Assembly (NCBI GenBank): GCA_016219285.1
Contig: JACRNJ010000078.1
Location: 1-44,681 of the forward strand
Origin: Deltaproteobacteria bacterium
GTDB taxonomy: Bacteria > Desulfobacterota > GWC2-55-46 > UBA9637
Direction: 5' to 3'
DNA: 44,681 bases
In this document: positions 11,817 through 28,833 of the stretch, piece by piece
Layout: every line of letters starts with the position of its first letter
Numbering within the stretch: the first letter of the stretch is position 1
Made by a program: the position numbers and the translations under genes
The notes under the pieces: generated by a model
The model's database searches: none
What the model was told of the DNA's origin: nothing
Seen by the model: only the letters and a program-made list of their open reading frames with translations

Positions 11817-11857
11817 GGTGTGCAACACTATTTTGTCGTTCCCTGAGGTGATTGATA

Positions 11858-12220
11858 ATGCTCTTATCTTATCTTCCTGTCCTGGTAATTATTGGTTTTG
11901 TAACATTTCTTGCTGTTGCGGTATTCTTTATAAACAGCATAGTAAGCCCCAACAATCCTTACAAAGACAAGCTTTCCCCCTGGGAATGCGGCATGGAGCC
12001 CATTGGCAATGATGCAAGCGCGGGCCATTTCAAAGTCCACTTCTTTATTATAGCAATCCTGTTTATAGTTTTTGATGCTGAAACGTTATATTTGTTTCCA
12101 TGGGCGGTTGTCTTTAGGGAACTCGGAGTAGTTGCGTTTGTAGAGATGTTTATATTTATAGGCATATTGCTGATTGGCTTTATATACGCATGGGCAAAGG
12201 GGGCTCTGGAATGGGTATAG
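11858..12220 (+). CDS. nuoA: NADH-quinone oxidoreductase subunit A
   Basis: A 120-residue membrane subunit with three helices, at about residues 4-25, 61-82 and 90-113. The loop between helices 1 and 2 has the family signature [10 protein letters not shown], and helix 2 has [15 protein letters not shown] with its conserved acidic residues. NuoA lies at the junction between the quinone cavity and the membrane arm. GAGGTG at 11845-11850 is 7 bases before the ATG at 11858; a TTG at 11852 is too close to it. It is the first gene of the complex I operon and its end overlaps nuoB by 10 bases. Confidence 0.93.
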
Positions 12221-12774
12221 CAGAGAATTCCCTGGAAGGGGTTGTGCAATTTACTACCCTTGAGAGCATTGTAGAACTGACAGGCAGAACAGCAGCCATT
12301 TTGGCAAAGACAACAGGAATTGATACAGTTGTTGACGGTGTTGTGAACTGGGGCAGGAGATCGTCTCTCTGGCCTATGACATTTGGCCTTGCATGCTGCG
12401 CCATAGAAATGATTGCAGCAGGCTGCTCCCGTTATGATACAGACAGGTTTGGCATAGTCTTCAGACCTTCTCCCAGGCAGAGTGATGTTATTATTATTGC
12501 AGGCACTATGACAAAAAAGATTGCGCCTGCTGTTAAAAGGGTATATGACCAGATGGCAGAGCCGAGGTGGGTTATTGCTATGGGCGGCTGCGCATCAGCA
12601 GGCGGCCCTTATAATACATACTCTGTTGTTCAGGGCACAGACCTTGTTATACCTGTTGATGTTTACATTCCTGGTTGCCCGCCCAGGCCGGAGGCGCTTT
12701 TATACGGGTTTTTGCAGCTGCAGGAAAAGATAAAAAGAGAGATGCCGTCAGTATTTGCAAGGTATGAAAAATAG
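12211..12774 (+). CDS. nuoB: NADH-quinone oxidoreductase subunit B
   Basis: A 187-residue subunit holding cluster N2, the last Fe-S cluster before quinone. Its ligands are visible: tandem C62-C63 (GLACCAIEM), C127 ([10 protein letters not shown]) and C156 ([13 protein letters not shown]). I use the ATG at 12211, which has AGGGGG 7 bases upstream; an ATG at 12190 would overlap nuoA by 31 bases. The N-terminal 40 residues before the core are variable. Translational coupling with nuoA is likely from the overlap. Confidence 0.93.
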
Positions 12775-12778
12775 CATT

Positions 12779-12831
12779 CAGCTATCAGCGTTCAGCTTTA
12801 AGCTGATTGCTGACCGCTGAAAGCTGACAGC
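12779..12831. repeat. AGCTGA/TCAGCT palindromic repeat between nuoB and nuoC
   Basis: A string of CAGC/GCTG words folds on itself: GCTATCAGCGTTCAGCTTT faces AAAGCTGACAGC with inner AAGCTGATTGCTGACCGCTG. A run of six T follows, so it could attenuate transcription, although the operon clearly continues. Confidence 0.65.
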
Positions 12832-12851
12832 TTTTTTACGGAGTTTAAAAG

Positions 12852-13358
12852 ATGACAATCGGCCCCGATTCAATTCTAATAAAAAATATTAAAGAAAAGT
12901 TTGGCCAGTCTATCCTTGATACCTCTATATTCAGAGATGAGGCAACCCATCTAATCAGGAAGGAAAGCCTGCTTGAGGTATGTAAGTTCCTGAAAGATAA
13001 TAGTGAACTTCAGTTTAATTTCCTTTCAGACATTGCAGGCATTGATTATTTTCCCCAGAATCCCAGATTTGAAGTTGTATATCACCTTTATTCCATTTCC
13101 CAAAAACACAGGGTAAGATTAAAAATTAAAACAGAAGATGGAGAAACAGTTCCCTCTGTTACCCCTGTTTGGAGCGGCGCGGATTGGGCAGAACGTGAGG
13201 CGTATGATATGTTCGGCATTATATTTGAAGGCCACCCGAATCTCAAGAGGATATACATGCCCGACGAGTGGGAAGGTTTTCCTTTGCGGAAAGATTACCC
13301 GCTCAAGGGATATAAGGACAGGTATAATCCGTATGGGGAAGAAAAGGACAAGAGGTAA
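12852..13358 (+). CDS. nuoC: NADH-quinone oxidoreductase subunit C
   Basis: A 168-residue stand-alone subunit C (30-kDa subunit family), part of the hydrophilic connecting arm with NuoD and NuoB. The signature is REAYDMFGIIFEGHPNLKRIYMPDEWEGFPLRKDYP near the C-terminus, of which EREAYDMFG and PLRKDYPL are diagnostic. NuoC and NuoD are separate genes here, unlike the fused NuoCD of E. coli. The stop codon lies inside the GGTAAGA-rich repeat that follows. Confidence 0.93.
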   Translation: MTIGPDSILIKNIKEKFGQSILDTSIFRDEATHLIRKESLLEVCKFLKDNSELQFNFLSDIAGIDYFPQNPRFEVVYHLYSISQKHRVRLKIKTEDGETVPSVTPVWSGADWAEREAYDMFGIIFEGHPNLKRIYMPDEWEGFPLRKDYPLKGYKDRYNPYGEEKDKR

Positions 13359-13422
13359 GAGGTAAGAAGCAAGAGGTAAGATTTTTTCTTGCTTCTGACT
13401 TCTGGCATCTTGCTTCTTACTT
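13353..13422. repeat. AAGAGGTAAGAAGC inverted repeat between nuoC and nuoD
   Basis: GTAAGAAGCAAGA on the left is answered twice on the right by TCTTGCTTC and TCTTGCTTCTTAC. The left end also has tandem AAGAGGTAAG units, one of which contains the nuoC stop codon. Confidence 0.7.
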
Positions 13423-13427
13423 TACAC

Positions 13428-14615
13428 ATGGCAAACAACCAAGAAATAGCTACAAAAGAGATAACCTTAAACATGGGTCCCCAACACCCGTCCACTCACG
13501 GTGTGCTGCACATGTTTCTGGATATGAAGGGTGAGAAGATAATTAAGGCAACCCCTGATATAGGATACCTTCACAGAGGCACAGAGAAGATTGCGGAAAA
13601 CCTGCTTTATCATCAGTTTGTTCCATATACGGACAGGCTGGAATATTGGTCTGCCATGGGCAACAACCTTGCCTATGTGCTGGCTGTTGAAAAACTCCTG
13701 GGTATTGAAGTAACAGAACGGGCAAAATATATAAGAGTATTAGTGGCAGAACTTTCAAGGATTACAGGCCATCTTACCTGTATAGGCGCATGGGCGCTTG
13801 ACCTTGGCGCAATGACTGTTCTTCTCTATGCGTTCAGGGAAAGGGAGATGGTGCTGGATCTGTTTGAGATGATTTGCGGCGCAAGGGTAACGCACAATTA
13901 TTTAAGGATTGGAGGGGTGAGGTATGACCTGCAGCCTTTATTTAAGGAAAAATGCCTTGAATTTGTGGACCTCTTTCCCAAAAAACTAGATGAGTATGAG
14001 CAGCTCTTAACAGGAAACAGGATATGGCTTAAGAGAAATAAAGGGGTTGGTGTGATATCTGCAGAGGATGCAATAAGCCTTGGTCTGAGTGGTCCGATCC
14101 TTAGAAGCACAGGCGTCAAATGGGACATAAGAAAGGATGAACCATATCTTATCTATGACAGACTTGACTTTGATATCCCAGTTGGTGAAAACGGAGACTG
14201 TTTTGACAGATATGTTCTTCGCATGCAAGAGATGAGGCAGGCCGCAAGGATAATAAAGCAGGCATTGGAACAGCTGCCCGATGGCAAGCCTTGCATTGAT
14301 ATGCCTGAAGTTGTTCCGCCGCCAAGAAAAAATATAGAAACAAATATGGAATCTCTCATCCATCATTTTAAACTTGTTTCCCACGGATTCAAGGCCCCAA
14401 AGGGCGAGGTGTATGCCAGCATTGAGGCGCCCAAGGGCGAATTGGGATTTTATATAGTAAGTGACGGTTCAGAAAGACCGTTCAGGGTAAAGATAAAGGC
14501 ACCTTCATTTGTAAATCTGCAGGCTATAGACCCCATGTGTAAAGATGCATACCTTGCAGATGTGGTTGCTGTGGTTTCAAGTCTTGACCCTGTATTTGGC
14601 GAGGCGGATAAGTAG
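13428..14615 (+). CDS. nuoD: NADH-quinone oxidoreductase subunit D
   Basis: The 49-kDa subunit, which with NuoB forms the quinone-binding pocket. From the ATG at 13428 it has 395 residues. GPQHPSTHGVLHMFLDMKGE near the N-terminus holds the His and Thr/Ser region lining the quinone site. YLHRGTEKIAE, YWSAMGNN and the C-terminal DPVFGE are also typical of the family. ORF extension to 13389 runs into the preceding repeat and is rejected. No clear ribosome-binding site is seen before 13428. Confidence 0.93.
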   Translation: MANNQEIATKEITLNMGPQHPSTHGVLHMFLDMKGEKIIKATPDIGYLHRGTEKIAENLLYHQFVPYTDRLEYWSAMGNNLAYVLAVEKLLGIEVTERAKYIRVLVAELSRITGHLTCIGAWALDLGAMTVLLYAFREREMVLDLFEMICGARVTHNYLRIGGVRYDLQPLFKEKCLEFVDLFPKKLDEYEQLLTGNRIWLKRNKGVGVISAEDAISLGLSGPILRSTGVKWDIRKDEPYLIYDRLDFDIPVGENGDCFDRYVLRMQEMRQAARIIKQALEQLPDGKPCIDMPEVVPPPRKNIETNMESLIHHFKLVSHGFKAPKGEVYASIEAPKGELGFYIVSDGSERPFRVKIKAPSFVNLQAIDPMCKDAYLADVVAVVSSLDPVFGEADK

Positions 14616-14621
14616 AACTAC

Positions 14622-14693
14622 TTACGATTTACGAATTACGAATTACGATTTTGGATTTTAAATCATAAATCTGAAATCTAAAATCGTAAATCT
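14622..14693. repeat. GATTTACGA-family repeat before nuoE
   Basis: Left half repeats TTACGATTTACGAATTACG; right half has AAATCGTAAATCT and AAATCATAAATCTG, the reverse complements. The element ends about 9 bases before the nuoE ATG and replaces any ribosome-binding site. Confidence 0.8.
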
Positions 14694-14702
14694 AATTAAG
14701 AT

Positions 14703-15167
14703 ATGCTTTCAACTCAGGCCATAGAAAATATTAAAAAGGCAATAGCCAAATATCCAACAAAAAAATCTGCATCAATGGATGCCTTGATGATTGCGCAGAA
14801 AGAGTGCGGCCATCTTACAGAGGATATTTTGCTTGAGATTGCCCACCTCCTGGATATGCCGCCGGTTCAGCTTAATCAGGTTGCGGCATTTTATACAATG
14901 TATAATAAAAGACCTGTAGGGAAATACCATATACAGGTTTGCACAAACATCTCATGTTCATTGCTTGATTCAGAGCATATAGTTCAATTTTTCTCAAAAA
15001 GGCTTGGCATAAAAAAGGGAGAGACAACATCTGATAAAAAATTCACACTTTCAGAGGTTGAGTGTCTTGGTTCATGCGGCACAGCGCCGATGATGCAGAT
15101 AAATGACGATTATTACGAAAATCTGACAGAGGCAAAGGTTGAGGAGATATTGAAAACGTTAAAATAA
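14703..15167 (+). CDS. nuoE: NADH-quinone oxidoreductase subunit E
   Basis: A 154-residue thioredoxin-fold [2Fe-2S] subunit of the NADH-oxidising module. The four cluster ligands are C80 and C85 (QVCTNISC) and C121 and C125 (ECLGSCG). The N-terminal helical part includes AIAKYPTKKSA and LNQVAAFYTMYN, as in other NuoE proteins. The start at 14703 directly follows a GATTTACGA repeat and no Shine-Dalgarno sequence is visible. Confidence 0.93.
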   Translation: MLSTQAIENIKKAIAKYPTKKSASMDALMIAQKECGHLTEDILLEIAHLLDMPPVQLNQVAAFYTMYNKRPVGKYHIQVCTNISCSLLDSEHIVQFFSKRLGIKKGETTSDKKFTLSEVECLGSCGTAPMMQINDDYYENLTEAKVEEILKTLK

Positions 15168-15168
15168 A

Positions 15169-15232
15169 ATTTACGAATTACGATTGACGATTTAAAATCT
15201 CAAGTCGTAAATCTGAAATCATAAATCTGAAA
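15169..15232. repeat. GATTTACGA-family repeat before nuoF
   Basis: ATTTACGAATTACGATTGACG on one side, AAGTCGTAAATCTGAAATC on the other; it ends 5 bases before the nuoF ATG. Confidence 0.75.
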
Positions 15233-15237
15233 TACAT

Positions 15238-16494
15238 ATGGAACCTAATCTTCTAAAAAACATAAACACCCCTGATTCTCACCGGATAGATGTATATATT
15301 AAAAACGGCGGGTATCAGGCGCTTCCTGCGGCATTAAAAATGCAGACGGATGCGCTTATCCAGATGGTCAAGGATTCAGGGCTTCGGGGCCGCGGCGGCG
15401 CAGGATTTTCAACAGGTCTTAAATGGAGTTTTATTACAAAAGACCCAACCATAGCTAAATATCTTTGCTGCAATGCTGATGAAGGGGAGCCGGGGACATT
15501 TAAGGACAGGATAATTATTGAAAAAGACCCGCATCAACTTATAGAGGGTATGGCTGTAGCTTGTTACGCAATTGGCGCTCATGCAGCATATATCTACATC
15601 AGAGGCGAATTTGATTTTGGGGCAAGAAGACTTGAGCAGGCAATCTCTGAGGCTCATCAAAAGGGCTATCTTGGCAAGAACATCCTCGGCACAAATTTTA
15701 ATTGTGATATCTATGTTCATAAAGGCGCTGGCGCATATATATGCGGGGAAGAAACAGCGCTTATTGAATCAATAGAAGGAAAAAGAGGACAGCCTAGGAT
15801 TAAGCCGCCATTTCCAGCGCAGGTCGGCCTTTTTGCAAAACCAACTGTTATAAATAATGTTGAAACCCTTGCATGTATTACTCACATCATAAACAAGGGG
15901 CCGAAATGGTTTGCATCCATCGGGCCTGAAAAAAGCCCTGGCCCTAAAATAGTCGGGGTAAGCGGCCATGTTAAAAAACCAGGGCTTTATGAACTACCTA
16001 TGGAAACTCCGCTCCGGGAGGTTATTTTTACACACGCAGGCGGCATCCGTGACGGCAGAAAATTCAAGGCTGCTATACCTGGCGGGGTCTCTGCGCCCAT
16101 GCTTACGGAAAAGGATCTGGATACTACCATGGACTTTGACGGCATGGCTGCTAAAGGCACAATGCTCGGTTCAGCAGGTGTTATAGTGATGGATGATACA
16201 ACCTGCATTGTAAAGGTTGCCATGAGGACAATGGGATTTTTCAGGCACGAATCATGCGGCAAATGCACGCCGTGCAGGGAAGGCACGGATTGGACATACA
16301 AGGTTCTGCACAGGATTGAACATGGACAGGGTAAAGATGGCGATGTGGAACTTCTTGAAAAACTATGCGGAAATATCTTTGGCAGGACATTCTGCCCCCT
16401 CGGAGACGGCGCAGTCATGGCGCTCCGCGGGGCATTGAAGAATTTTAAGGAAGAGTTTCTTTATCATGTGAAGAATAAGAGATGTATGGTTTAG
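15238..16494 (+). CDS. nuoF: NADH-quinone oxidoreductase subunit F
   Basis: The 418-residue subunit that binds NADH and FMN and carries cluster N3. Visible motifs are the FMN/NADH loop SGLRGRGGAGFSTGLKW, the NADEGEPGTFKDR segment, GAGAYICGEETALIESIEG, and the [4Fe-4S] ligands SCGKCTPCREG with a distal cysteine in GRTFCPLGDG. Together with NuoE and NuoG it forms the complete NADH-dehydrogenase module, so this complex I uses NADH rather than only ferredoxin. The start immediately follows a repeat and lacks a visible ribosome-binding site. Confidence 0.94.
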   Translation: MEPNLLKNINTPDSHRIDVYIKNGGYQALPAALKMQTDALIQMVKDSGLRGRGGAGFSTGLKWSFITKDPTIAKYLCCNADEGEPGTFKDRIIIEKDPHQLIEGMAVACYAIGAHAAYIYIRGEFDFGARRLEQAISEAHQKGYLGKNILGTNFNCDIYVHKGAGAYICGEETALIESIEGKRGQPRIKPPFPAQVGLFAKPTVINNVETLACITHIINKGPKWFASIGPEKSPGPKIVGVSGHVKKPGLYELPMETPLREVIFTHAGGIRDGRKFKAAIPGGVSAPMLTEKDLDTTMDFDGMAAKGTMLGSAGVIVMDDTTCIVKVAMRTMGFFRHESCGKCTPCREGTDWTYKVLHRIEHGQGKDGDVELLEKLCGNIFGRTFCPLGDGAVMALRGALKNFKEEFLYHVKNKRCMV

Positions 16495-16700
16495 ATAACA
16501 ATTAAGAATTATGAATCAGGAGTTGTGTTTAGGAGATACTACAATAAATTTCTAATTTCTAAATCATAATTCCTAATAAATCCTTGACAGGAAGAATATC
16601 TGTCAAGGATAAAATGTCAAATGTCAAAAAACAACCATAAATTGCAGTCAATGGATATTTTATTAGAAATTTAGACATTAGGATTTAGGAATTGTATTTA
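16495..16700. repeat. Composite repeat region between nuoF and nuoG
   Basis: 206 bases with no gene. TAAGAATTATGAATCAGG and TAATTTCTAAATCATAATTC on the left are mirrored by AGAAATTTAGACATTAGG and TTAGGAATT on the right, a variant of the GATTTACGA class. At 16580-16610 a CCTTGACA hairpin (ATCCTTGACAG facing CTGTCAAGGAT, 11 bp exact) lies in the middle, as if one element entered another. Confidence 0.65.
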
Positions 16701-16702
16701 TT

Positions 16703-19117
16703 ATGGCTACTGTAAAAATCAACGGAAAAGAAATCACAGTAGAGGACGGAACCTTAATCCTTGATGCTGCCAGGCAGGCAGGGTTTGAGATACCCACATT
16801 CTGCTATCAGGCAAGACTTTCAAGGCTCGGCTCATGCAGGATGTGCCTTGTTGAGATAGGCGGGCAGAGAAAGCTTCAGCCCTCATGTGTAACGCCAGTG
16901 CTTCACGGTATGGAGGTCTTTACTGAAAATGAGACTGTTAAATCTGCGCGCTCATCCATGCTTGAATTCATGCTTGCAAATCACCCGCTTGACTGTCCGA
17001 CATGCGATAAGGGAGGGGAGTGTGAGTTGCAGGATTTTGTTTTTAAATCAGGACCGAGGCACAGCCCGTTTGATGAATGGAAGAGAAGGTTTCATGAAAA
17101 AGATGAGATATTAAGTCCGATTATTGTAAAGAACCACAATCGTTGTATCCACTGTGAGAGGTGCGTAAGGATATGTGATGAGGTTGTCGGCGTGTCAGCC
17201 CTCGGTGGAATCGGCAGAGGCGCTAAAACGCAGGAAACAAGTTTCTGGAATACAACCCTTGACTGCGACCACTGCGGCAACTGCATAGAGGTCTGCCCTG
17301 TTGGTTCATTTATGAGCCTTGCTTATAGGTATAAATCAAGGCCGTGGGATTTAAAAGAGGCAGATACCGTGTGTCCATACTGCGCTACAGGCTGTCAGAT
17401 TACAATCGGCGCAAGAAACGGCGAGGTTGTAAGGGTCAGGTCAAAGAGCGCAACGGGCATAAATAAGGAGACGCTTTGCAGCCGCGGCAGGTTTGGGTAT
17501 CACTTTATGCAAAGTGAGAAAAGGCTTACAAAGCCGATGATTAAAAAGGGTGGGAGGCTTGTAGAATGCTCGTGGGAAGAGGCCTTATCCGCCATTAAAC
17601 AAAGATTTGGCATGGGTAGAAAGACCGCCGGCATTGCAAGCACAAGGCTTACCAATGAGGAATTATTTGTATTCCAGAAGCTTGTTAGAGATGTATTCAA
17701 GACAAATAATATTGATTTAGACAGCAGATTTGCAAATAAATGGGTAACATCTGCAATGGTTGATGTGTGCGGTTTTAGAGAAGGCGGTGTTTCAATCTTT
17801 GATGCGCTAAAGGCAGACACAATCTTTATCATTGGTTCGGCAATATCCGATGAAAATCCTATAACAGATTATTTGATAAGGACAACTGCCTCTGATAAAA
17901 GAAAGACCTTAATCCTTGCGCACCCAAGGCGGCTCAAACTTAATAGTTCGGCAACTATTTCTCTGAAGTATAAACCAGCAAATCTTGGAGATGTTGTAAA
18001 AGGTATTGTTGATTTTATTGAAAAAGGCAAAGATAAGGCAGAAGGGGATATTGACGCTGCCGCATTAAGGTTTAAGAACGCATCAACTATAACAATATTT
18101 TTAGGCGCGGATATTTTGAGGCTTGATAATGGCACAGATGTGCTGGAGAATATTGCAGTATTAAAGACCTTATTAAAAAAGACAGGGAAGAATATAAATT
18201 GCCTTCCTCTATTTGACAGGTGCAATCAGCGCGGCGCAATAAGTATGGGTATACATCCATTGTTTTTGCCAGGATTCAAAAAGAGTGAAGAAGAAGGCAT
18301 GGACTGCGGAGAAATCCTTAATGCAGCAAAGAATGGAGAGATTGAAAGTCTTTATGTGCTTGGCGAGGATATTGTTTCAATGTATCCAGATGCAAGATTT
18401 GCAAAAGATGCCGTGTCAAAGGTAAAGTTTTTAGTTGTTCAGGACACGTTTCTTACAGAAACAGCAAAGATGGCAGATGTTGTTCTGCCAGGGGTAACAT
18501 ATGCTGAAAAGGATGGGACATTTACCAATCAGGAAGGAAGGGTTCAGAGGGTTAGAAAGATAATTTCCTGTGTTGGTGGTTCAAAGGATGATTTAAGCAT
18601 ACTTGATAATATTGGAGGCTTTGGATATAAATCTGCAAAGGATGTATTTGATGATATAAAAGAAGAAGCGCCATCTTATAAAGACATATTATTTGATGCC
18701 TTAAATAATACAGGGGTGTTGGTAAATGGGCAGGGGACAGGGGGCATGAGTCAGGAGCCAGGAGTCAGGAGTCAGAGACAAGAAGCAATAGACTATTCGG
18801 AATATCCGTTCCAGGTTATAACAGGCAACCATCTTTTCCATTCAGGAAGACTATCTCAGAAGGCGCATGTATTGGTGAAACTGCTGGCAGAACCATTTGT
18901 TGAGATAAGCGATGAAGATGCTAAAGAACTTGGTTTATCTGACAAAGAGGTTGTAATTGTAAAATCAAAAGAATATGAGGCGGCATTGAAATTGCGGGTG
19001 GTAAAAGGTTCTCAAAAAGGCGTTGCATTTATACCTGAAAATTTCGACAGTGTTTCAGTGAACAGGTTTTATACAAGGGGAGAAGGGATGGCGAGGGTGA
19101 AGATAAATAAATTATGA
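16703..19117 (+). CDS. nuoG: NADH-quinone oxidoreductase subunit G
   Basis: An 804-residue electron-conducting subunit. The N-terminal [2Fe-2S] domain has C34, C45, C48 and a fourth cysteine in QPSCVTPV. Next come the His-ligated cluster HPLDCPTCDKGGEC, and two [4Fe-4S] clusters in NRCIHCERCVRIC and DCDHCGNCIEVC. An additional CPYCATGC…LCSRGRFGY motif matches the N7 cluster, absent from many complex I enzymes. The rest is a molybdopterin-oxidoreductase-like domain that in NuoG has no molybdenum role. At about residues 677-694 a low-complexity stretch (GQGTGGMSQEPGVRSQRQ) is coded by a CAGGAGTCAGGAGT-type repeat and looks like an in-frame insertion between domains. Confidence 0.94.
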   Translation: MATVKINGKEITVEDGTLILDAARQAGFEIPTFCYQARLSRLGSCRMCLVEIGGQRKLQPSCVTPVLHGMEVFTENETVKSARSSMLEFMLANHPLDCPTCDKGGECELQDFVFKSGPRHSPFDEWKRRFHEKDEILSPIIVKNHNRCIHCERCVRICDEVVGVSALGGIGRGAKTQETSFWNTTLDCDHCGNCIEVCPVGSFMSLAYRYKSRPWDLKEADTVCPYCATGCQITIGARNGEVVRVRSKSATGINKETLCSRGRFGYHFMQSEKRLTKPMIKKGGRLVECSWEEALSAIKQRFGMGRKTAGIASTRLTNEELFVFQKLVRDVFKTNNIDLDSRFANKWVTSAMVDVCGFREGGVSIFDALKADTIFIIGSAISDENPITDYLIRTTASDKRKTLILAHPRRLKLNSSATISLKYKPANLGDVVKGIVDFIEKGKDKAEGDIDAAALRFKNASTITIFLGADILRLDNGTDVLENIAVLKTLLKKTGKNINCLPLFDRCNQRGAISMGIHPLFLPGFKKSEEEGMDCGEILNAAKNGEIESLYVLGEDIVSMYPDARFAKDAVSKVKFLVVQDTFLTETAKMADVVLPGVTYAEKDGTFTNQEGRVQRVRKIISCVGGSKDDLSILDNIGGFGYKSAKDVFDDIKEEAPSYKDILFDALNNTGVLVNGQGTGGMSQEPGVRSQRQEAIDYSEYPFQVITGNHLFHSGRLSQKAHVLVKLLAEPFVEISDEDAKELGLSDKEVVIVKSKEYEAALKLRVVKGSQKGVAFIPENFDSVSVNRFYTRGEGMARVKINKL
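18729..18783 (+). repeat. GAGTCAGGAGTCAG repeat inside nuoG
   Basis: Tandem GGAGCCA/GGAGTCA heptamers preceded by GGGCAGGGGACAGGGGG; translated in frame as Gly/Ser/Gln-rich residues in nuoG. Similar heptamers are in pth at 31021-31049. Confidence 0.6.
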
Positions 19118-19169
19118 TTTACGATTTACGAATTACGATTTAAAATCTAAAATCAGAAATCGTAAATTT
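19115..19169. repeat. GATTTACGA-family repeat after nuoG
   Basis: TGATTTACGATTTACGAATT on the left, AAATCAGAAATCGTAAAT on the right. Unlike other copies it ends 17 bases before the next ATG and leaves a good GGAGGTGG site intact. Confidence 0.75.
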
Positions 19170-19186
19170 GATAACGGAGGTGGCAG

Positions 19187-19657
19187 ATGGTTGACCAAAA
19201 AATTTTAAGAGACATGGCTTTTTTTGGAGACTTTACGGATGAAGAGCTGACTGCCATATCAAAGATTGTAAAAAAGAAAAGCTATAAGATAGGCGAGCCT
19301 ATTTTTAAAGAGAATGAAGACGGCACTTCAATGTATATTATAAGAAAGGGCGAGGTAAAGGCATGCAAGGCTGCGCCTGACGGTGAGCTTATGACCCTTA
19401 CCCTGATGAAAGACGGAGACATATTCGGCGAGATGAGTTTTCTTGACGAAAGGCCACGCTCTGCCACTATAGTTGCCATATCAAGTACAGAGGCTTACTC
19501 TATTGAGAAGTATGATTTTGAAAAGCTTATAGATTCGCACCCGAGGATGGTTTACAAGATGCTTAAAAATATAATCTTTACTGTGCATACCATTGTTCGC
19601 GGTATGAATACCCGATATATTGAGATGGTAAATTATATGTGGGGGAGAAGGAGATAA
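19187..19657 (+). CDS. Single-domain cyclic-nucleotide-binding protein encoded within the nuo operon
   Basis: A 156-residue protein with one cNMP-binding domain (residues about 10-125) and no helix-turn-helix domain. The phosphate-binding cassette reads FGEMSFLDERPRSATIVA with E82 and R91, the residues that contact the cyclic phosphate and ribose in CRP-like proteins, so ligand binding is plausible. The C-terminal 30 residues (KMLKNIIFTVHTIVRGMNTRYIEM) form a helix like the CRP dimerisation helix. It lies between nuoG and nuoH on the same strand with a strong GGAGGTGG site. It could be a regulatory or assembly factor of complex I, acting by protein contact. That link is inference from position only; the domain assignment is firm. 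Confidence 0.88.
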   Translation: MVDQKILRDMAFFGDFTDEELTAISKIVKKKSYKIGEPIFKENEDGTSMYIIRKGEVKACKAAPDGELMTLTLMKDGDIFGEMSFLDERPRSATIVAISSTEAYSIEKYDFEKLIDSHPRMVYKMLKNIIFTVHTIVRGMNTRYIEMVNYMWGRRR

Positions 19658-19666
19658 TACAATTTG

Positions 19667-19729
19667 TGATTTACGATTTGGGATTTGAGATTTAAAATCC
19701 TAAATCCAAAATCTGAAATCCAAAATCCT
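19667..19729. repeat. GATTTACGA-family repeat before nuoH
   Basis: GTGATTTACGATTTGGGATTT is mirrored by AAATCCTAAATCC and AAATCTGAAATCC. It ends 3 bases before the nuoH ATG. Confidence 0.75.
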
Positions 19730-19732
19730 GTT

Positions 19733-20758
19733 ATGCCTGACATCAACACACTCATAGAAGTTGCATTGATAATAGTCAAGGTTATCGTGGTAAGCCTTAT
19801 ACTCTTTACCCTGCCAATCCCTTTAACATGGATAGAGAGGAAGGTTGCAGGCCATATCCAGGTGAGGCTTGGACCATTCAGGGTTGGGCCGCACGGGATA
19901 TTACAGCCTGTTGCAGACATGATTAAACTTATGTTCAAGGAGGATATTGCCCCCGACAAGGCTGACAAATGGCTTTTCAAGTTTGCGCCTTTGTTTGCCA
20001 TGGTACCTGCCTTTGCTGTTTATGCAGCCATACCCTTTGGAGATAAAATAACTATTCCCATCATAAATAAAGAGGTAACACTCTATATCTCTGATATGAA
20101 TGTTGGGATATTGTATATACTGGCTGTGGGTGGAATTAGTGTTTACGGCATAATACTTGGAGGGTGGGCGTCTAACAGCAAATATGCCCTCCTCGGAGGT
20201 ATTCGCTCATCTGCCCAGATGATAAGCTACGAAATTGCCCTGACCTTCTCCTGTATTGGTGTTGTAATGACTTCAAATTCATTGAGTCTTTTGGATATAG
20301 TAAAACTCCAGAGCGGAACCATATTGGGTTTTATACCTCATTGGAACATTATATGTCAGCCCATAGGATTTGCGATATTTTTCATAGCGGCTCTGGCGGA
20401 AATAAACAGAATACCGTTTGACCTGCCTGAGGATGAAGGAAGCCTGGCGGCAGGGTATCATGTGGAATACAGCGCAATGAAGTTTTCCTTTTTCATGCTT
20501 ACAGAGTATCTGGCTATGGTGACGGCCTCTGTGTTGACTGTGATACTTTTCTTTGGCGGCTGGAATGCGCCTCTATTTATGCCGGAGATACCTATTTTCT
20601 GGTTTGTTGCCAAGGTAGGTTTCTTTATCTACTTATTCATGTGGATAAGGTTTACTCTTCCGAGATACCGTTATGACCAGCTTATGACTATTGGCTGGAA
20701 GATTCTGCTGCCTTTATCATTATTGAACATATTGCTTACAGGATTATTTTTATTGTAG
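19733..20758 (+). CDS. nuoH: NADH-quinone oxidoreductase subunit H
   Basis: A 341-residue membrane subunit with about eight helices that forms the entrance of the quinone channel. Diagnostic are WIERKVAGHIQVRLGPFRVG, GILQPVADMIKLMFKED and EINRIPFDLPEDEGSLAAGYHVEYSAMKF; in the last the usual PEAE is PEDE. An upstream ATG at 19685 lies in the preceding repeat and is rejected. Its stop codon TAG is the TAG of the TGTAG element that starts at 20754, so the element forms the end of the gene. Confidence 0.94.
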   Translation: MPDINTLIEVALIIVKVIVVSLILFTLPIPLTWIERKVAGHIQVRLGPFRVGPHGILQPVADMIKLMFKEDIAPDKADKWLFKFAPLFAMVPAFAVYAAIPFGDKITIPIINKEVTLYISDMNVGILYILAVGGISVYGIILGGWASNSKYALLGGIRSSAQMISYEIALTFSCIGVVMTSNSLSLLDIVKLQSGTILGFIPHWNIICQPIGFAIFFIAALAEINRIPFDLPEDEGSLAAGYHVEYSAMKFSFFMLTEYLAMVTASVLTVILFFGGWNAPLFMPEIPIFWFVAKVGFFIYLFMWIRFTLPRYRYDQLMTIGWKILLPLSLLNILLTGLFLL

Positions 20759-20809
20759 CTGCCGATTTATCGGCGTTTTTTAAATACGCCAATAAATGGG
20801 CAAACTACA
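20754..20809. repeat. TGTAG palindromic element at the nuoH stop codon
   Basis: TGTAGCTGCCGATTTATCGG faces AATAAATGGGCAAACTACA around TTTTTTAAAT. The TAG of its first five bases is the nuoH stop codon. Confidence 0.85.
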
Positions 20810-20845
20810 TTTAAATACATTAACAGGCAACCGCCAAACCTTTTT

Positions 20846-20900
20846 TGTAGCTGCCAATTTATCGGCGTTTTTTAAATCGCCAATGAATTGGCAAACTACA
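20846..20900. repeat. TGTAG palindromic element, second copy in tandem
   Basis: TGTAGCTGCCAATTTATCGG faces AATGAATTGGCAAACTACA. It has the same orientation as the copy 92 bases upstream and ends 6 bases before the nuoI start. Confidence 0.85.
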
Positions 20901-20906
20901 GACAGA

Positions 20907-21521
20907 ATGCAGAACATGACAAATATTCTGAAAAAAATATTCTTTATAGATTTTATAAAAGGCCTTTCCCTGACACTTGGCTATGAGGTGTCAAAGAGCG
21001 TTACCATGCGTTATCCTGATGAGGAAAAGTGGCTGCCTTATCAGAGATTCAGGGGTCTTCACACACTAAACAGAGATGCGCAGGGAAGGGAACTCTGTGT
21101 GGCGTGTGAACTTTGTGCCAAGACATGTCCCACAAAGTGCATCACGGTTGTACCAATGGAGGATGACACAGGTATAGGTATTAGTGACAGGATTGCAAAG
21201 GTATATGAAATAAACCTTGTCAGGTGTATGTTCTGCGGTCTTTGTGAAGACGCTTGCCCTACAACGGCAATAAGGATGGGAAGGGATTATGAGCTTGCAT
21301 GTTTTTCTTTGGACTGCGCTGCTGCCGATAAGAAAAGACTTCTTGCGCCTGCCCACCCCTTCCCCTTCCAAGAGGGGATTCAAAAAAGTCCCCTCCTTGG
21401 AGGGGATAAAGGGGTGGGTCAAGAATTTGAGGGTGGTTATGTAGTCGGGGCGCGGCTTGAGAGGAATAAACAAGGCATAAGTATCAAACCTGATTTAACT
21501 AGGAAGAAGAGGTGGTGGTAA
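20907..21521 (+). CDS. nuoI: NADH-quinone oxidoreductase subunit I with repeat-derived C-terminal insertion
   Basis: A ferredoxin-like subunit carrying clusters N6a and N6b. From the ATG at 20907 it has 204 residues; an ATG at 20916 is equally possible, and the longer ORF to 20796 is made of repeat. Ligands are C64, C67, C70, C74 (CVACELCAKTC) and C107, C110, C113, C117 (CMFCGLCEDAC). Residues about 149-171 (AHPFPFQEGIQ, SPLLGGDKGVG) are coded by a 67-base CCCACCCC palindrome that is read in frame; the sequence then resumes as EGGYVVGARLER. The insertion is past both clusters, near the normal end of the domain, so the core is intact. Confidence 0.92.
   Translation: MQNMTNILKKIFFIDFIKGLSLTLGYEVSKSVTMRYPDEEKWLPYQRFRGLHTLNRDAQGRELCVACELCAKTCPTKCITVVPMEDDTGIGISDRIAKVYEINLVRCMFCGLCEDACPTTAIRMGRDYELACFSLDCAAADKKRLLAPAHPFPFQEGIQKSPLLGGDKGVGQEFEGGYVVGARLERNKQGISIKPDLTRKKRWW
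21352..21418 (+). repeat. CCCACCCC palindromic repeat inside nuoI
   Basis: CCCACCCCTT and AAGGGGTGGG are the outer arms. Inside, CCCCTTCCAAGAGGGGA and TCCCCTCCTTGGAGGGGA are two further self-complementary segments. The whole lies in the nuoI reading frame. Confidence 0.8.
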
Positions 21522-21522
21522 G

Positions 21523-21590
21523 GAATTACGATTTACGAATTACGAATTACGATTTAAAATCGTAAATCTAAAATCGTAAATCTAAAATCA
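21523..21590. repeat. GATTTACGA-family repeat before nuoJ
   Basis: TTACGATTTACGAATTACG twice on the left, AAATCGTAAATCTAAAATCG on the right. It is one of the best-conserved copies and ends 3 bases before the nuoJ ATG. Confidence 0.8.
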
Positions 21591-21593
21591 TAT

Positions 21594-22097
21594 ATGGAAA
21601 AGCTATTCTTCTTAATATTTGCGGTAATAGCGATCGTATCAGCAATAGGGGTTGTTTCGCTGAGAAACCCTGTTCACAGCGCTATTTCCCTTATGGTATG
21701 TTTTTTACAGGTTGCAGCCCTCTTCATTTTGCTGAGGTCTCCGTTTCTTGCCGCTGTTCAGGTTTTTATCTATGTTGGCGCTGTAGTAGTATTATTCCTG
21801 TTTGCAGTCATGGTTCTGGACCTTGGCAAGGAAAGGTTTGGAGGGTATCTTCACCACCAGAGGCCGATTGCGCTGGTTGTTGTAATAGGGTTTGTATTTG
21901 TTATGGGGTTTACCATATTACACGGCAGCCTTGATGCGCCGCTTGGTAATTATACGGAAGAGGCATTGGTTAAGAATACAGAAATTATGGGTAAACTTCT
22001 TTTTACAAAATATGTATTTCCATTTGAGGTTGTATCGTTTTTACTTTTAATAGCTCTTATTGGGGCAATAGTTCTGGCAATGAAGGAGAAAAGGTGA
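21594..22097 (+). CDS. nuoJ: NADH-quinone oxidoreductase subunit J
   Basis: A 167-residue membrane subunit with five predicted helices. SLRNPVHSAISLMVCFLQVAALFILLRSPFLAAVQVFIYVGAVVVLFLFAVMVL is the family core, of which RNPVHSA and QVFIYVGAVVVLFLF are diagnostic. Helix 3 of NuoJ takes part in conformational coupling. The stop overlaps the nuoK GTG start (GTGA arrangement). The start has no visible ribosome-binding site because a repeat abuts it. Confidence 0.93.
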   Translation: MEKLFFLIFAVIAIVSAIGVVSLRNPVHSAISLMVCFLQVAALFILLRSPFLAAVQVFIYVGAVVVLFLFAVMVLDLGKERFGGYLHHQRPIALVVVIGFVFVMGFTILHGSLDAPLGNYTEEALVKNTEIMGKLLFTKYVFPFEVVSFLLLIALIGAIVLAMKEKR

Positions 22098-22396
22098 TTC
22101 CCTTATCTCATTATCTGTTATTAAGTTTGGCACTTTTTTCAATAGGTGTTGCGGGCGTACTGCTGCGCAGAAGCATTATAATAGTTTTGATGTCTCTTGA
22201 GTTAATATTTAACTCAATAAACTTAAGCCTTGTTGCGTTTGCACATTTTCTTCAGTCAATGACAGGAAGGGTATTTGTTGTATTTACCATAACAGTTGCA
22301 GCAGCAGAGGTTGCTGTTGGGCTTGCAATACTCGTTGCTGTTTACAGACGGCGTAAGACCGTTTATGTGGAAGAATTGAATGAAATGAAACATTAG
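22094..22396 (+). CDS. nuoK: NADH-quinone oxidoreductase subunit K
   Basis: A 100-residue three-helix subunit of the proton channel. The two essential glutamates are present: one in LMSLELIFNSINL (helix 2) and one in AAAEVAVGLAI (helix 3). GTG start, overlapping nuoJ by 4 bases; GAAGGAGAAAAG upstream serves as ribosome-binding site. Length equals the family norm. Confidence 0.94.
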   Translation: MIPLSHYLLLSLALFSIGVAGVLLRRSIIIVLMSLELIFNSINLSLVAFAHFLQSMTGRVFVVFTITVAAAEVAVGLAILVAVYRRRKTVYVEELNEMKH

Positions 22397-22400
22397 AAAG

Positions 22401-22479
22401 GCAGGTATTAGGTGTTAGGTATCAGGTGTTAGTAAAAACAAAAAATCCTGAACCCTAAACCCTAAACCCTGAACCCTGA
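22401..22479. repeat. Heptamer repeat (GGTGTTA / CCCTAAA types) between nuoK and nuoL
   Basis: Left part: TTAGGTGTTAGGTATCAGG. Right part: four heptamers of the CCCTAAA / CCCTGAA type (about 22449-22479). The two parts are rough reverse complements, so the whole can fold into a hairpin. It ends 2 bases before the nuoL ATG. Confidence 0.7.
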
Positions 22480-22481
22480 TT

Positions 22482-24329
22482 ATGACAACCTGGTTAATAT
22501 TATTCATACCGCTTATCTCTGCTGTTTTAATCACCTTTGTTACAAGGAGGCAGAAGGATTTAAGTTCCTATATCTCAATAGGCGCTGTGGTCTTTTGTTT
22601 TATCCTATCCATAGATCCGATTCTAAATCTCTTAAAACATCCGCATATGGAACCTATCCAGCAAAGCTTTTCATGGATAAATATTCCTGGACTTCATGTT
22701 GAGATGGGAACTCTCCTTGACCCATTAAGCATCTTAATGCTCTTTGTTGTTACCTTTGTAGGTTCTTTGATACATATCTATTCAAGGGGCTACATGCACG
22801 GTGACCCTGGTTTTTCAAGATTCTTTGCATGTCTTTCTTTGTTCATATTCTCAATGTTCGGCATTGTCCTTTCAAATAACTTTATACAGATATTTATATT
22901 CTGGGAGCTTGTCGGGCTTTCATCATATCTTTTGATAGGGTACTATTTTGAGAAACCATCCGCATCCGATGCTTCTAAAAAGGCATTCCTTGTCAACAGG
23001 ATCGGCGATTTTGGTTTTATACTTGGCATATTCGTTTTATTTCAGGCAACGGGCACATTCAATTTTATTGAGATAAACCATATACTGGAAAAGGGCGGCA
23101 TACCTGATTCAACCTTATATCTTGCAGCGCTTTTAATATTCTGCGGCGCTGTTGGCAAGTCTGCGCAATTCCCTTTGCATGTGTGGCTTCCTGATGCGAT
23201 GGAAGGTCCGACCCCTGTTTCAGCCCTAATCCATGCTGCAACGATGGTTGCGGCAGGTGTTTATTTACTTGCAAGGACAGCGCTCCTCTATCACCTTTCG
23301 CCGGATGCAATGGAGGTTGTTGCGTATATCGGCGGGTTTACAGCGCTTTTGGCAGCAGTTATTGCAGTTGCGCAGAATGACATAAAAAGGGTTGTTGCAT
23401 ACTCAACATTATCGTCGCTTGGCTACATGGTCATGGCAATGGGTGTTGGCGGAATGACAGCGGGCATGTTTTATCTTACAACCCATGCATTTTTCAAGGC
23501 GCTCTTATTTCTTGCGGCAGGAAGCGTTATACATGCATTTCACACGCAAAATATATGGGAGATGGGCAGCGCATTTAAGAAAGTTAAGACAACCGGCGCT
23601 ACATTCATACTCGGTTCGCTTGCCATGGCAGGAGTATTTCCGTTCAGCGGATTCTGGAGCAAGGATGAAATCTTGACTGCAACATTTACATCGCATCACT
23701 ATTTCCTTTTTGCAATAGGTATTTTGGTTGCATTTATATCAGCATTCTTTATGACAAGACTTGTATTTGTAACATTCTTTGGCAATGAAAGGTATCACGG
23801 CCATCCACATGAATCACCGCCTGTAATGACAGTGCCTTTAATCATACTTGCAGTTTTTGCTGTTCTTTCAGGTTTTGCAGGGCTGCCATGGTTTGAACCA
23901 AACTTTGGCACCTATATAGCAGGGCCGTCTCACGGCGGACACGGCGAACACGGATTTAATTTCTTTGTTGCAGGTCTTTCAACAGTAGTTGTTCTTGCAG
24001 GCATTGCGCTTGGCTACATCATCTATTGCAGAGAATTAACAAAAGACCCGCTTGAAGGAAATGTCCTTTATAAACTTGCGCATAATAAATTTTATTTTGA
24101 TGAATTCTATGACAATTTTATAGTCGCAAAGATTTACAACGGCATAGCAACGATATGTAACTTTGCTGAAGTGAATATCATTATACATTTATTTGTAAAC
24201 GGCTTTGCGTATCTTACAAGAGAGTCAGGCAAGATTTTAAGGCTTACCACTACAGGCAAGCTCCAGCACTATACGCTGATAATGGTTGCAGGCGTTGTGG
24301 CGCTTTTTTTATTGTTTGGGGCGCTGTAG
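22482..24329 (+). CDS. nuoL: NADH-quinone oxidoreductase subunit L
   Basis: A 615-residue antiporter-like subunit of the distal membrane arm, with the long lateral helix at its C-terminus. FWELVGLSSYLLIGYYFEKPSA has the conserved Glu of helix 5, and FPLHVWLPDAMEGPTPVSALIHAATMVAAGVYLL the central channel motif. A His-rich loop (HGGHGEHG) at about residue 488 is a variable feature. The stop codon TAG is the TAG of the TGTAG element that follows. No ribosome-binding site is seen before the start because a heptamer repeat abuts it. Confidence 0.94.
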   Translation: MTTWLILFIPLISAVLITFVTRRQKDLSSYISIGAVVFCFILSIDPILNLLKHPHMEPIQQSFSWINIPGLHVEMGTLLDPLSILMLFVVTFVGSLIHIYSRGYMHGDPGFSRFFACLSLFIFSMFGIVLSNNFIQIFIFWELVGLSSYLLIGYYFEKPSASDASKKAFLVNRIGDFGFILGIFVLFQATGTFNFIEINHILEKGGIPDSTLYLAALLIFCGAVGKSAQFPLHVWLPDAMEGPTPVSALIHAATMVAAGVYLLARTALLYHLSPDAMEVVAYIGGFTALLAAVIAVAQNDIKRVVAYSTLSSLGYMVMAMGVGGMTAGMFYLTTHAFFKALLFLAAGSVIHAFHTQNIWEMGSAFKKVKTTGATFILGSLAMAGVFPFSGFWSKDEILTATFTSHHYFLFAIGILVAFISAFFMTRLVFVTFFGNERYHGHPHESPPVMTVPLIILAVFAVLSGFAGLPWFEPNFGTYIAGPSHGGHGEHGFNFFVAGLSTVVVLAGIALGYIIYCRELTKDPLEGNVLYKLAHNKFYFDEFYDNFIVAKIYNGIATICNFAEVNIIIHLFVNGFAYLTRESGKILRLTTTGKLQHYTLIMVAGVVALFLLFGAL

Positions 24330-24382
24330 CTGCCCAATTTATTGGGCTGCTTTTAAAGTCGCTGACAAATCGGCAGACTACA
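24325..24382. repeat. TGTAG palindromic element at the nuoL stop codon
   Basis: TGTAGCTGCCCAATTTATTG faces GCTGACAAATCGGCAGACTACA around GCTTTTAAAG. As in nuoH, the TAG of the first five bases is the stop codon of the preceding gene. Confidence 0.85.
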
Positions 24383-24403
24383 TTTTAATATCAGGAGATT
24401 TTA

Positions 24404-25915
24404 ATGGAAGGTTTTCCAATCTTATCAGCAATAATACTTGCCCCTCTTTTCGGATGCATTGCTATTCTCTTTGTTAAGGAAGCGTCTATTTCAAAGATAA
24501 GGGCAATTGCTGTTATATCAACATCTGTTTCGCTGATACTTTCCCTTTACCTCTTGTTTGCCTATGACAAGGCAAAGGCAGGGTATCAGTTTGTTGAAAA
24601 AGTAGAGTGGGTCAGGTCGCTTGGCATATCATATCATGTTGGTGTTGACGGCATAAGCGTTGCAATGGTTGTTTTAACATCCTTTGTCATATTCACGGGT
24701 GTGTTTGTATCATGGGTAGGCATAAAACACAGGATAAAGGAGCATTACATATTTCTGCTTTTGCTGGTAAGCGGTGTGTTCGGCGTATTTACATCACTGG
24801 ATATGATATTCTTTTATCTGTTTTATGAACTCGCTGTTATTCCCATGTATCCGCTCATCGGCATATGGGGCAGCGCCAACAGGGAATACGCAACAATGAA
24901 ACTAACCCTGTATTTGAGTTTTGGCGCAGTGTTTGCCCTCATAGGTATTTTGTCAATATATTTTACCGCCGGACAGATGACAGGAAGCTACACATTTGAC
25001 ATGACTCAAATTGGGAAAATAAGTTTTGCATCAAGCTATCAGATTTGGGTATTTTTGCCGCTCCTATTCGGTTTTGGCGTTTTAGTTCCGCTTGCGCCAT
25101 TCCATTCATGGTCTCCCATAGGACATGCAGCAGCGCCGTCTGCTGTCAGCATGCTTCATGCAGGGGTTTTGATGAAACTTGGCGCATATGGAATTATAAG
25201 GATTGCAATGGGTCTTTTGCCAGAGGGCGCGCAATTCTGGATGCCTGTTGTTGCAGTCCTGTGTCTTATAAATATATTCTATGGCGGCATGGTTGCAATG
25301 CACAGGAAGGACATGAAATTTATGATAGGTTATTCATCCTCAAGCCATATGGGCTATGTCCTGCTTGGGCTTTCAACGCTTAATTATATTGGTGTAAATG
25401 GAGCAGTTCTTCTTATGTTTGCCCACGGCATAATGACAGCGCTCGCCTTCGCACTCATAGGTTTTGTATATGACCAGGCGCATACCCGTATGACATATGA
25501 TTTTTCAGGTCTTGCGCACAAGATGCCTTTTATTGCGGTTGCATTTGCAATAATGGGTTTTGCATCATCAGGGCTTCCAGGCTTGGCAAACTTTGTCTCT
25601 GAACTCATGATATTTATCGGCGCATTCAAGACATATCCTTTTCAGGCAGTTATTGCTGTGTTTGGCATCATTATAACTGCCACCTATATGTTAAGGGCTT
25701 TAAGGAATGTATTTTTCTGCGAACCAATGCCTGAATGGGAACATCTAAAAGACGCAACAACATTTGTGCAGAGGTTTCCCTACATTGTCCTGATTTTAGT
25801 TTTACTGATAGTCGGCTTCTATCCGGCAATACTTATTGATGTAATAAATGCAGGCGTTATGCCGCTTGTTGACAAGATAAATAATGTAAGCATGGCAGCA
25901 AAGGCGGGTTTATAA
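24404..25915 (+). CDS. nuoM: NADH-quinone oxidoreductase subunit M
   Basis: A 503-residue antiporter-like subunit with about 14 helices. FFYLFYELAVIPMYPLIGIWG carries the essential helix-5 Glu. The channel motif is of the FHSWSPIGHAAAPSAVSMLHAGVLMKLGAYG type, in which the usual LPDAHTEAP is replaced by SPIGHAAAP; this variant recurs in other NuoM proteins of deltaproteobacterial type as far as I recall. AGGAG lies before the ATG. It is followed after one base by nuoN. Confidence 0.93.
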   Translation: MEGFPILSAIILAPLFGCIAILFVKEASISKIRAIAVISTSVSLILSLYLLFAYDKAKAGYQFVEKVEWVRSLGISYHVGVDGISVAMVVLTSFVIFTGVFVSWVGIKHRIKEHYIFLLLLVSGVFGVFTSLDMIFFYLFYELAVIPMYPLIGIWGSANREYATMKLTLYLSFGAVFALIGILSIYFTAGQMTGSYTFDMTQIGKISFASSYQIWVFLPLLFGFGVLVPLAPFHSWSPIGHAAAPSAVSMLHAGVLMKLGAYGIIRIAMGLLPEGAQFWMPVVAVLCLINIFYGGMVAMHRKDMKFMIGYSSSSHMGYVLLGLSTLNYIGVNGAVLLMFAHGIMTALAFALIGFVYDQAHTRMTYDFSGLAHKMPFIAVAFAIMGFASSGLPGLANFVSELMIFIGAFKTYPFQAVIAVFGIIITATYMLRALRNVFFCEPMPEWEHLKDATTFVQRFPYIVLILVLLIVGFYPAILIDVINAGVMPLVDKINNVSMAAKAGL

Positions 25916-25916
25916 A

Positions 25917-27350
25917 ATGGATGTAAATATTGAATTATTTTTACCGGAGATAATTGTAACCATCTTTGCATTTGCAATAATGGCAGCGGATTTACTAATG
26001 GCTTCAGGTGAAAGAAAAAGCCTTGCGAGGATCGGCATAATAGGTTCTCTTATTGCCGTCATAATAATTGCAATAAATTCTGAGATTAGGGGGATAACAC
26101 TCTTCGGTTTTTTTGTACAGGACAGCGTCGCAGTATTTTTTAAGGTGTTATTTCTTTTGACAGGCATGTTGATACTTTACATGGCGCAGGAATACGAAGA
26201 AAAGATAAAGCAGTTTAAGGGCGAATTTTATATGCTAATACTGTTTGCAGTCCTTGCAATGATGTTTCTTGCATCGTCAAATGATTTTATAAGCCTATAT
26301 GTATCTCTTGAATTTCTTGCTGTAACGCTTTATATCCTTGCCTGTTATACAAAAGAAGAATCGGCCTCTGTTGAGGCTGGCTTAAAATACCTTGTTACAG
26401 GCGCGCTTGCGTCAGGCTTTTTGTTATACGGCATAACATATCTTTACGGCGCTACAGGCTCAACAGAATTTTCTCAAATTGCAAATGTCATAAATGGGAA
26501 GGATGTTAGCGGATTTCTTGCAATAGGGCTTATGCTCGTTGTAATAGGTCTTACATTCAAGATAGCATCAATACCGTTTCATGTATGGGCGCCTGATATT
26601 TATCAGGGAGCGCCAACGCCAATAACGGCGTTTCTTGCAGCAGGCTCAAAGGCGGCAGGTTTTGTAATACTCATGAGGGTGATGTTCACTGCATTGGGCA
26701 GTATAAGGCCACATTGGGTATTTTTTATATCAGTCATATCGGCCTTAACACTTTTATTTGGCAATCTTGCTGCAATGCCTCAGAAAAATATAAAAAGAAT
26801 GCTTGCGTATGCAAGCATAGGCTCTGCAGGTTATCTGTTGATGGGTATTGCTGCGGCATCTCAACTTGGCAGCGGCGCTATAATGTTTTACCTTTTCACA
26901 TACCTTTTTGCCATAGCAGGCGTATTTCTGGCAATAGTCATATTTTATAATAGTGAAGGAAGCGACGGCATAGATGCATATACAGGGCTTTCAAGACGTT
27001 CTCCGATTCTTGCGGCAACGCTTTTTATAGGACTCCTCTCCCTTGCAGGCGTTCCTCCGCTTGGCGGTTTCATAGCAAAACTCTATCTGATTGCTGCTGT
27101 TGTTAAAGAAGGGCTTCTATGGCTTGCGGTTGTCGGTGTTTTAATGGCAATAGCAGCAATGTATTACTTTCTTCTTGTCATAAAGCGGATATATCTATGG
27201 CAGCCAAAGATTGATACACCAATAAAAGTAAGCCTAATTAACAAAGCGCTCCTTTACGGTATAAACACCTCAACACTTGTTTTAGGCATATACCCAGGAC
27301 CTTTTACAGAGTGGGTTATGAGGATTGCAAATGTTTTGTTTTTAAAATAG
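25917..27350 (+). CDS. nuoN: NADH-quinone oxidoreductase subunit N
   Basis: A 477-residue antiporter-like subunit and last structural gene of the complex. YVSLEFLAVTLYILACY has the conserved Glu; KIASIPFHVWAPDIYQGAPTPITAFLAAGSKAAGF is the channel signature. The start is one base after the nuoM stop, so translation is probably coupled. Its last codons and TAG lie in the left arm of a short hairpin (27343-27373). Confidence 0.94.
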   Translation: MDVNIELFLPEIIVTIFAFAIMAADLLMASGERKSLARIGIIGSLIAVIIIAINSEIRGITLFGFFVQDSVAVFFKVLFLLTGMLILYMAQEYEEKIKQFKGEFYMLILFAVLAMMFLASSNDFISLYVSLEFLAVTLYILACYTKEESASVEAGLKYLVTGALASGFLLYGITYLYGATGSTEFSQIANVINGKDVSGFLAIGLMLVVIGLTFKIASIPFHVWAPDIYQGAPTPITAFLAAGSKAAGFVILMRVMFTALGSIRPHWVFFISVISALTLLFGNLAAMPQKNIKRMLAYASIGSAGYLLMGIAAASQLGSGAIMFYLFTYLFAIAGVFLAIVIFYNSEGSDGIDAYTGLSRRSPILAATLFIGLLSLAGVPPLGGFIAKLYLIAAVVKEGLLWLAVVGVLMAIAAMYYFLLVIKRIYLWQPKIDTPIKVSLINKALLYGINTSTLVLGIYPGPFTEWVMRIANVLFLK

Positions 27351-28622: not shown

Positions 28623-28681
28623 ATTTTAGATTTAAGATTTACGATTTTGGATTTATAAATCCTAAATCATAAATCCTAAAT
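28623..28681. repeat. GATTTACGA-family repeat between ispE and tRNA-Gln
   Basis: ATTTAAGATTTACGATTTTGG faces AAATCCTAAATCATAAATCC. It starts at the ispE stop and ends 6 bases before the tRNA. Confidence 0.7.
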
Positions 28682-28686
28682 TCTTT

Positions 28687-28761: not shown

Positions 28762-28765
28762 GAAA

Positions 28766-28833
28766 GATTTACGAATTACGATTTACGAATTACGATTTAA
28801 AATCTAAAATCGTAAATCTAAAATCTGAAATCA
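28766..28833. repeat. GATTTACGA-family repeat before prs
   Basis: GATTTACGAATTACG twice on the left, AAATCGTAAATCTAAAATC on the right. Nearly the same as the copy before nuoJ; it ends 4 bases before the prs ATG. Confidence 0.8.

Follow-up and report, generated by a model that had tools for sequence, protein, structure and literature searches.

Signalling domains and complex I

The orphan response regulator Rv3143 binds NuoD and modulates the mycobacterial Nuo complex, and actinobacterial nuo operons often contain a gene for it (PMC9274095). Separate signalling-domain proteins that directly control bacterial complex I are rarely documented. Both elements relevant here are already known, namely a signalling-domain companion of complex I (Rv3143) and the CRP-type fold. 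No description of a cyclic-nucleotide-binding domain (CNBD) protein in nuo or formate dehydrogenase operons was found in the open-licence literature. A metaproteogenome paper on Nitrospirae gives complex I and formate dehydrogenase, with no CNBD named in its main text. The claim of an earlier note on this DNA, that known complex I accessory proteins do not include such a protein, holds within the open-licence papers searched. The gene's place in the complex I operon, together with relatives that stand with NADH-oxidising complexes elsewhere, points to a previously undescribed CNBD companion of these enzymes.

The CNBD gene in the complex I operon

The window analysed here is the whole 44,681-nucleotide stretch of contig JACRNJ010000078.1, from a draft genome (GCA_016219285.1) of 2.28 Mb that is 99% complete. 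The main features of the locus are as follows.

11852..27350, forward strand: complex I operon nuoA-nuoN, with the CNBD gene inside
16703..19117, forward strand: nuoG, upstream neighbour of the CNBD gene (TIGR01973, E=2e-158)
19176..19181, forward strand: Shine-Dalgarno sequence GGAGGT, 5 nt 5' of the CNBD ATG
19187..19657, forward strand: CNBD protein, 156 aa, ATG start; a lone CRP-like domain with a long C-terminal helix and no helix-turn-helix (HTH)
19733..20758, forward strand: nuoH, downstream neighbour of the CNBD gene; the ATG at 19733 is the likely start, and a TTG at 19685 is also open

The open reading frames and family matches confirm that the CNBD gene lies between nuoG and nuoH inside the operon, and the GGAGGT in front of its ATG provides the ribosome-binding site of its own that had been noted from the letters. 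The Pfam scan placed PF00027 (cNMP_binding) on residues 31-118 (E=6e-25) and revealed no second domain. No core Nuo family matched the open reading frame in the Pfam and NCBIfam scans, where the matches were to CNBD- and CRP-type-domain families, and the protein is not assignable to any of the 14 core Nuo subunits. A CRP-type transcription factor was also considered and ruled out, since the HTH is missing (156 aa, one Pfam domain, a helix at the end). The single Pfam domain and the AlphaFold2 model described below are in agreement with the earlier description of a lone CRP-like sensory domain without a DNA-binding part.

The intergenic gaps of the nuo operon and the DNA beyond it also contain a dispersed palindrome-like repeat, ATTTACGATTT, together with its complement (36 matches at no more than one mismatch, 2 expected). 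The repeat flanks the CNBD gene on both sides (19117-19167 and 19669-19705) and occurs in the window at 14620-14691, 15169-15226, 21524-21581, 28630-28817 and 30545-30596.

Distribution in the class and phylum

The survey of nuo operons proposed in the earlier note was carried out, and the gene was found between nuoG and nuoH throughout the window's class and in Nitrospirota metagenome-assembled genomes (MAGs). Matches at E<=1e-15 were obtained in 54 of the 59 class genomes searched, the window's own included; 52 of these have full-length copies with 59-100% identity, and the remaining matches (G007 and G016) are weaker and paralogue-type. All fetched class loci with a full-length copy show the order nuoG-CNBD-nuoH as far as contig ends permit. 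GTDB species genomes, scanned independently, yielded 54 loci beside nuo genes (47-99% identity), many of them from the same species as in the 59-genome search, and the same order was seen wherever contig ends do not cut it. Most of these loci come from MAGs titled 'Deltaproteobacteria bacterium', and a small number from Nitrospirae and 'Proteobacteria' MAGs.

Of the class genomes lacking the gene, four have no NuoH match at all, two have nuoH right at a contig start, and one (G041) has a divergent nuo operon. Inheritance of the CNBD gene thus goes with this operon type. The CNBD-free nuo operon of G041 (locus L137) mostly shows 29-56% identity, and its divergence suggests an operon replacement. 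Absence from the operons of relatives had been named as the sign of a chance insertion; the gene is instead kept at exactly the same place between nuoG and nuoH throughout the class, and a chance insertion is therefore ruled out.

In the profile search of the window's phylum, the nuo-linked copies, from the class and from family f53, scored at E<=7e-60, and other CNBD proteins at E>=4e-40. No nuo gene adjoins the next-best phylum loci that were fetched (L248-L260), which encode single-domain CNBDs and CRP-type regulators. Among 25 nuoH loci examined from phylum families outside the class, f53 excepted, none has a CNBD gene beside nuoH, and most have recognisable nuoG- or nuoD-like genes upstream. 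No CNBD match at E<=1e-35 was obtained in 398 genomes from the phylum of the Gammaproteobacteria MAG G688, a set without a positive control. The plasmids searched gave only weak matches, several of them annotated as Crp/Fnr regulators.

Over 26 operons the mean pairwise identity of the CNBD protein is 0.671. It is exceeded by NuoF (0.734), NuoB (0.72), NuoH (0.698) and NuoD (0.697), and is higher than that of NuoA (0.659), NuoE (0.63), NuoC (0.59) and NuoG (0.544). The CNBD distances correlate with both the NuoG and the NuoH distances at 0.85 in the same operons, and 54 of the 58 CNBD genes in nuoG-CNBD-nuoH operons have a Shine-Dalgarno core. Judged from identity, distance correlation and Shine-Dalgarno core, the gene is under constraint resembling that of a core subunit.

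Related copies in Nitrospirota and in formate dehydrogenase operons

Matches were found in 94 of 296 genomes in a Nitrospirota sample. Nine Nitrospirota have the order nuoG-CNBD-nuoH, with 59-70% identity; the other positions include nuoD-CNBD-nuoE, nuoD-CNBD-nuoH without nuoEFG, and CNBD-nuoE-nuoF-nuoG apart from the other nuo genes. In four loci (L094, L095, L205 and L206) the order is nuoABCD-CNBD-nuoHIJKLMN and nuoEFG is missing from the operon; L094 has nuoE- and nuoF-like genes nearby on the opposite strand. The CNBD-nuoE-nuoF-nuoG cluster of L207 lies away from the remaining nuo genes, and in L208 two nuo clusters stand back to back, with nuoEFG headed by the CNBD gene.

A further large Nitrospirota set has the CNBD gene adjoining NuoE-like, NuoF-like and NuoG-like genes. 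In L191 and L209 the NuoG-like gene is a formate dehydrogenase alpha gene (TIGR01591, E=7e-268 and 1e-265, respectively); these two loci were annotated, and the label 'formate dehydrogenase' is extended to the others from shared gene order. The two alpha genes (L191:5585-8242 and L209:10638-13334) contain an in-frame TGA, which probably encodes selenocysteine. In L191 the CNBD gene is followed by a gene for formate-tetrahydrofolate ligase. In each of three genomes (G535, G575 and G605) a complex I-linked copy coexists with one of the formate-dehydrogenase type.

Links to nuo-like genes were found for 125 of 133 classified CNBD loci, a proportion that is not an unbiased estimate because some genomes give more than one locus and the profiles were built from nuo-linked members. 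The eight unlinked loci include three ordinary CRPs with an HTH and one locus at a contig end. In L253, L256 and L257, two single-domain CNBD genes stand in tandem without a nuo link, next to a gene that by eye resembles a thioredoxin reductase gene. The CNBD genes of L160 and L164, whose tail is similar (QKMNERF), adjoin a gene that by eye resembles moaA and not nuo genes.

Predicted structure and C-terminal tail

The AlphaFold2 model of the window protein, made from a 41-sequence alignment, is a confident CRP-like domain (pLDDT 91.5), and Foldseek ranked the sensory domains of MtbCRP and GlxR as most similar to it. The C-terminal features are as follows.

19541..19651, forward strand: predicted C-terminal helix, residues 119-155 (37 residues, AlphaFold2), comparable to the CRP dimerisation helix
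19598..19609, forward strand: RxMN motif, residues 138-141
19640..19654, forward strand: aromatic-basic tail WGRRR, residues 152-156, shared by complex I-linked members and missing from formate-dehydrogenase-linked ones

By analogy with CRP, the long helix probably forms a dimer. Almost every complex I-linked copy retains the RxMN motif, as do most of the other copies, many formate-dehydrogenase-linked ones among them; roughly one in four copies of the formate-dehydrogenase type has His in place of its Arg. An equivalence of this motif with the adenine-contacting Thr/Asn pair of MtbCRP was considered and not adopted, because the alignment requires a four-residue gap within a helix that AlphaFold2 predicts as continuous.

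The last eight residues have a net charge of +2 to +3 when the copy is complex I-linked and of -2 to +1 in the others, where two loci with +3 tails and the script label 'FDH/other' (L032 and L154) are counted as complex I copies on short fragments. In the tree, the CNBD copies group largely by operon type. The difference in tail between partners tracks these clades, and the correlation is therefore suggestive, reflecting few independent events and not independent tests.

Pocket residues and ligand

The pocket features of the window protein are as follows.

19424..19465, forward strand: phosphate-binding cassette, residues 80-93 (FGEMSFLDERPRSA)
19430-19432, forward strand: E82, in the phosphate-binding cassette
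19457-19459, forward strand: R91, in the phosphate-binding cassette

E82 and R91 (FGEMSFLDERPRSAT) align with Glu80/Arg89 of MtbCRP and with the Glu and Arg in the pocket of E. coli CRP, and the ligand-contact pair described from the sequence is indeed kept in this protein. Within the nuoG-CNBD-nuoH clade Glu82 is retained in 51 of 54 members and Arg91 in 46, the other eight having His at position 91. The same change to His was found in all 16 nuoD>nuoE copies, all 7 nuoF>nuoG-like copies, and 31 of 32 copies located 3' of nuoG-like genes without a recognised following gene; in addition, Glu82 is replaced by Leu, Ile or Val in 13 of the 16 nuoD>nuoE members. The pocket Glu and Arg are thus not conserved across the whole linked family.

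A class III cyclase is encoded by 33 of the 41 class genomes searched. Neither a class III cyclase (PF00211) nor a CYTH/class IV cyclase (PF01928) was detected in seven near-complete genomes that all keep the CNBD gene (the window's genome G000, and G013, G023, G030, G033, G038 and G039), the search covering these two families. His at position 91 does not exclude cAMP, because a phosphate-binding Arg mutant of mammalian PKA RI-alpha could still be activated by cAMP, its loss being no more than 5-fold (PMC6440977). The trypanosomatid PKA regulatory subunit has nucleosides as effectors (PMC6440977, PMC10959531). The CNBD pocket probably takes a nucleotide or nucleoside as its ligand, which need not be cAMP.

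Proposed role and alternative explanations

The reading preferred here, with a probability of about 0.6, is that the CNBD protein is a dedicated companion of this lineage's complex I that acts by contact, and that its paralogues serve NAD-linked formate dehydrogenases. A CRP sensory domain minus its DNA-binding half would make direct contact with the respiratory enzyme and most likely dimerise through the long C-terminal helix. It would most likely dock through its aromatic-basic tail on the peripheral arm, close to the membrane, and adjust the activity or stability of the complex according to the occupancy of the pocket. Docking on the NADH module specifically is weakened by the nuoABCD-CNBD-nuoHIJKLMN operons, from which nuoEFG are missing.

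The operon linkage could also be read as that of an assembly factor or of a protein acting elsewhere. A factor for assembly or maturation, which would assist Fe-S or FMN insertion or the joining of the peripheral and membrane arms and would be absent from the finished enzyme, draws on the same linkage as the companion role. Complex I and the NAD-linked formate dehydrogenases also have in common NuoE/F/G-type modules that need cofactor insertion, and an interaction of RavA-ViaA with the E. coli Nuo complex has been reported (PMC3893208). However, the CNBD protein has no obvious catalytic or metal-binding motif, and a stoichiometric part would account at least equally well for its usually strong ribosome-binding site and its core-subunit-like conservation; the assembly explanation is considered unlikely. 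A stoichiometric, ligand-sensing subunit of both complex I and NAD-linked formate dehydrogenase, whose remodelled pocket reads a non-cyclic nucleotide (an adenine nucleotide or NAD(H), for example) and directly gates NADH oxidation, may be held as a tentative possibility.

Gating by cAMP or cGMP, in which the second messenger in the pocket would tune NADH oxidation, is favoured by the retention of Arg91 and Glu82 in most of the nuoG-CNBD-nuoH clade, by the class III cyclases in most class genomes searched, and by the behaviour of the PKA RI-alpha mutant; whereas the His at position 91 in some clade members and nearly all other linked members, the loss of Glu82 in most nuoD-CNBD-nuoE members, and the seven carrier genomes without a detectable class III or IV/CYTH cyclase argue against it. 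This variation and the missing cyclases weaken a simple cAMP sensor, and such gating appears quite doubtful. Of the earlier note's overall reading, the part that stands is that a lone CRP-like sensory domain lies within this operon, where it is no chance insertion; the response to cAMP or cGMP is unsupported as stated. Finally, the few related single-domain CNBDs without links to nuo-like genes count against the companion role and would suit an ordinary stand-alone CRP-fold protein, in the operon by chance and functionally unrelated to the complex. This is very improbable, given the strict co-inheritance with the nuo operon across the class and at least four arrangements with NADH-oxidoreductase genes (nuoG>nuoH, nuoD>nuoE, nuoD>nuoH and formate dehydrogenase operons).

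If the companion role is true, complex I and formate dehydrogenase would have a common type of companion in two broad, largely uncultured bacterial groups, and NADH oxidation might be set by cell state in a general way. It would also give a function to CNBD proteins that are mostly annotated as regulators only. E82, R91, the RxMN motif and the basic tail are specific residues at which this role can be tested.

Comparison with known systems

The CNBD protein shares its sensory fold and a comparable C-helix with the CRP/FNR factors (MtbCRP, GlxR and E. coli CRP); whereas it has no HTH, its C-helix is extended with a basic end, and the pocket Arg and Glu are not conserved in its wider family. The stand-alone CNBD structures 3GYD (Mfla_1926) and 3MDP (Gmet_1532) are similar in fold, and the likeness is of fold only. 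The trypanosomatid PKA regulatory subunit (6H4G), like many members of the present family, has a CNBD with another residue in place of the phosphate-binding Arg (PMC6440977, PMC10959531); it is a kinase regulator that binds nucleosides, and it offers a precedent solely for a changed pocket ligand. By analogy, the closest experimentally studied counterpart is Rv3143/Msmeg_2064 of the mycobacterial Nuo, which is likewise a signalling domain that lacks an output domain and is often encoded in nuo operons. Binding to the complex was reported for Rv3143 (PMC9274095), whereas for the CNBD protein it is proposed. The former is a CheY-like receiver of actinobacteria; whereas the latter is a CRP-like domain of other phyla that is linked to formate dehydrogenase as well.
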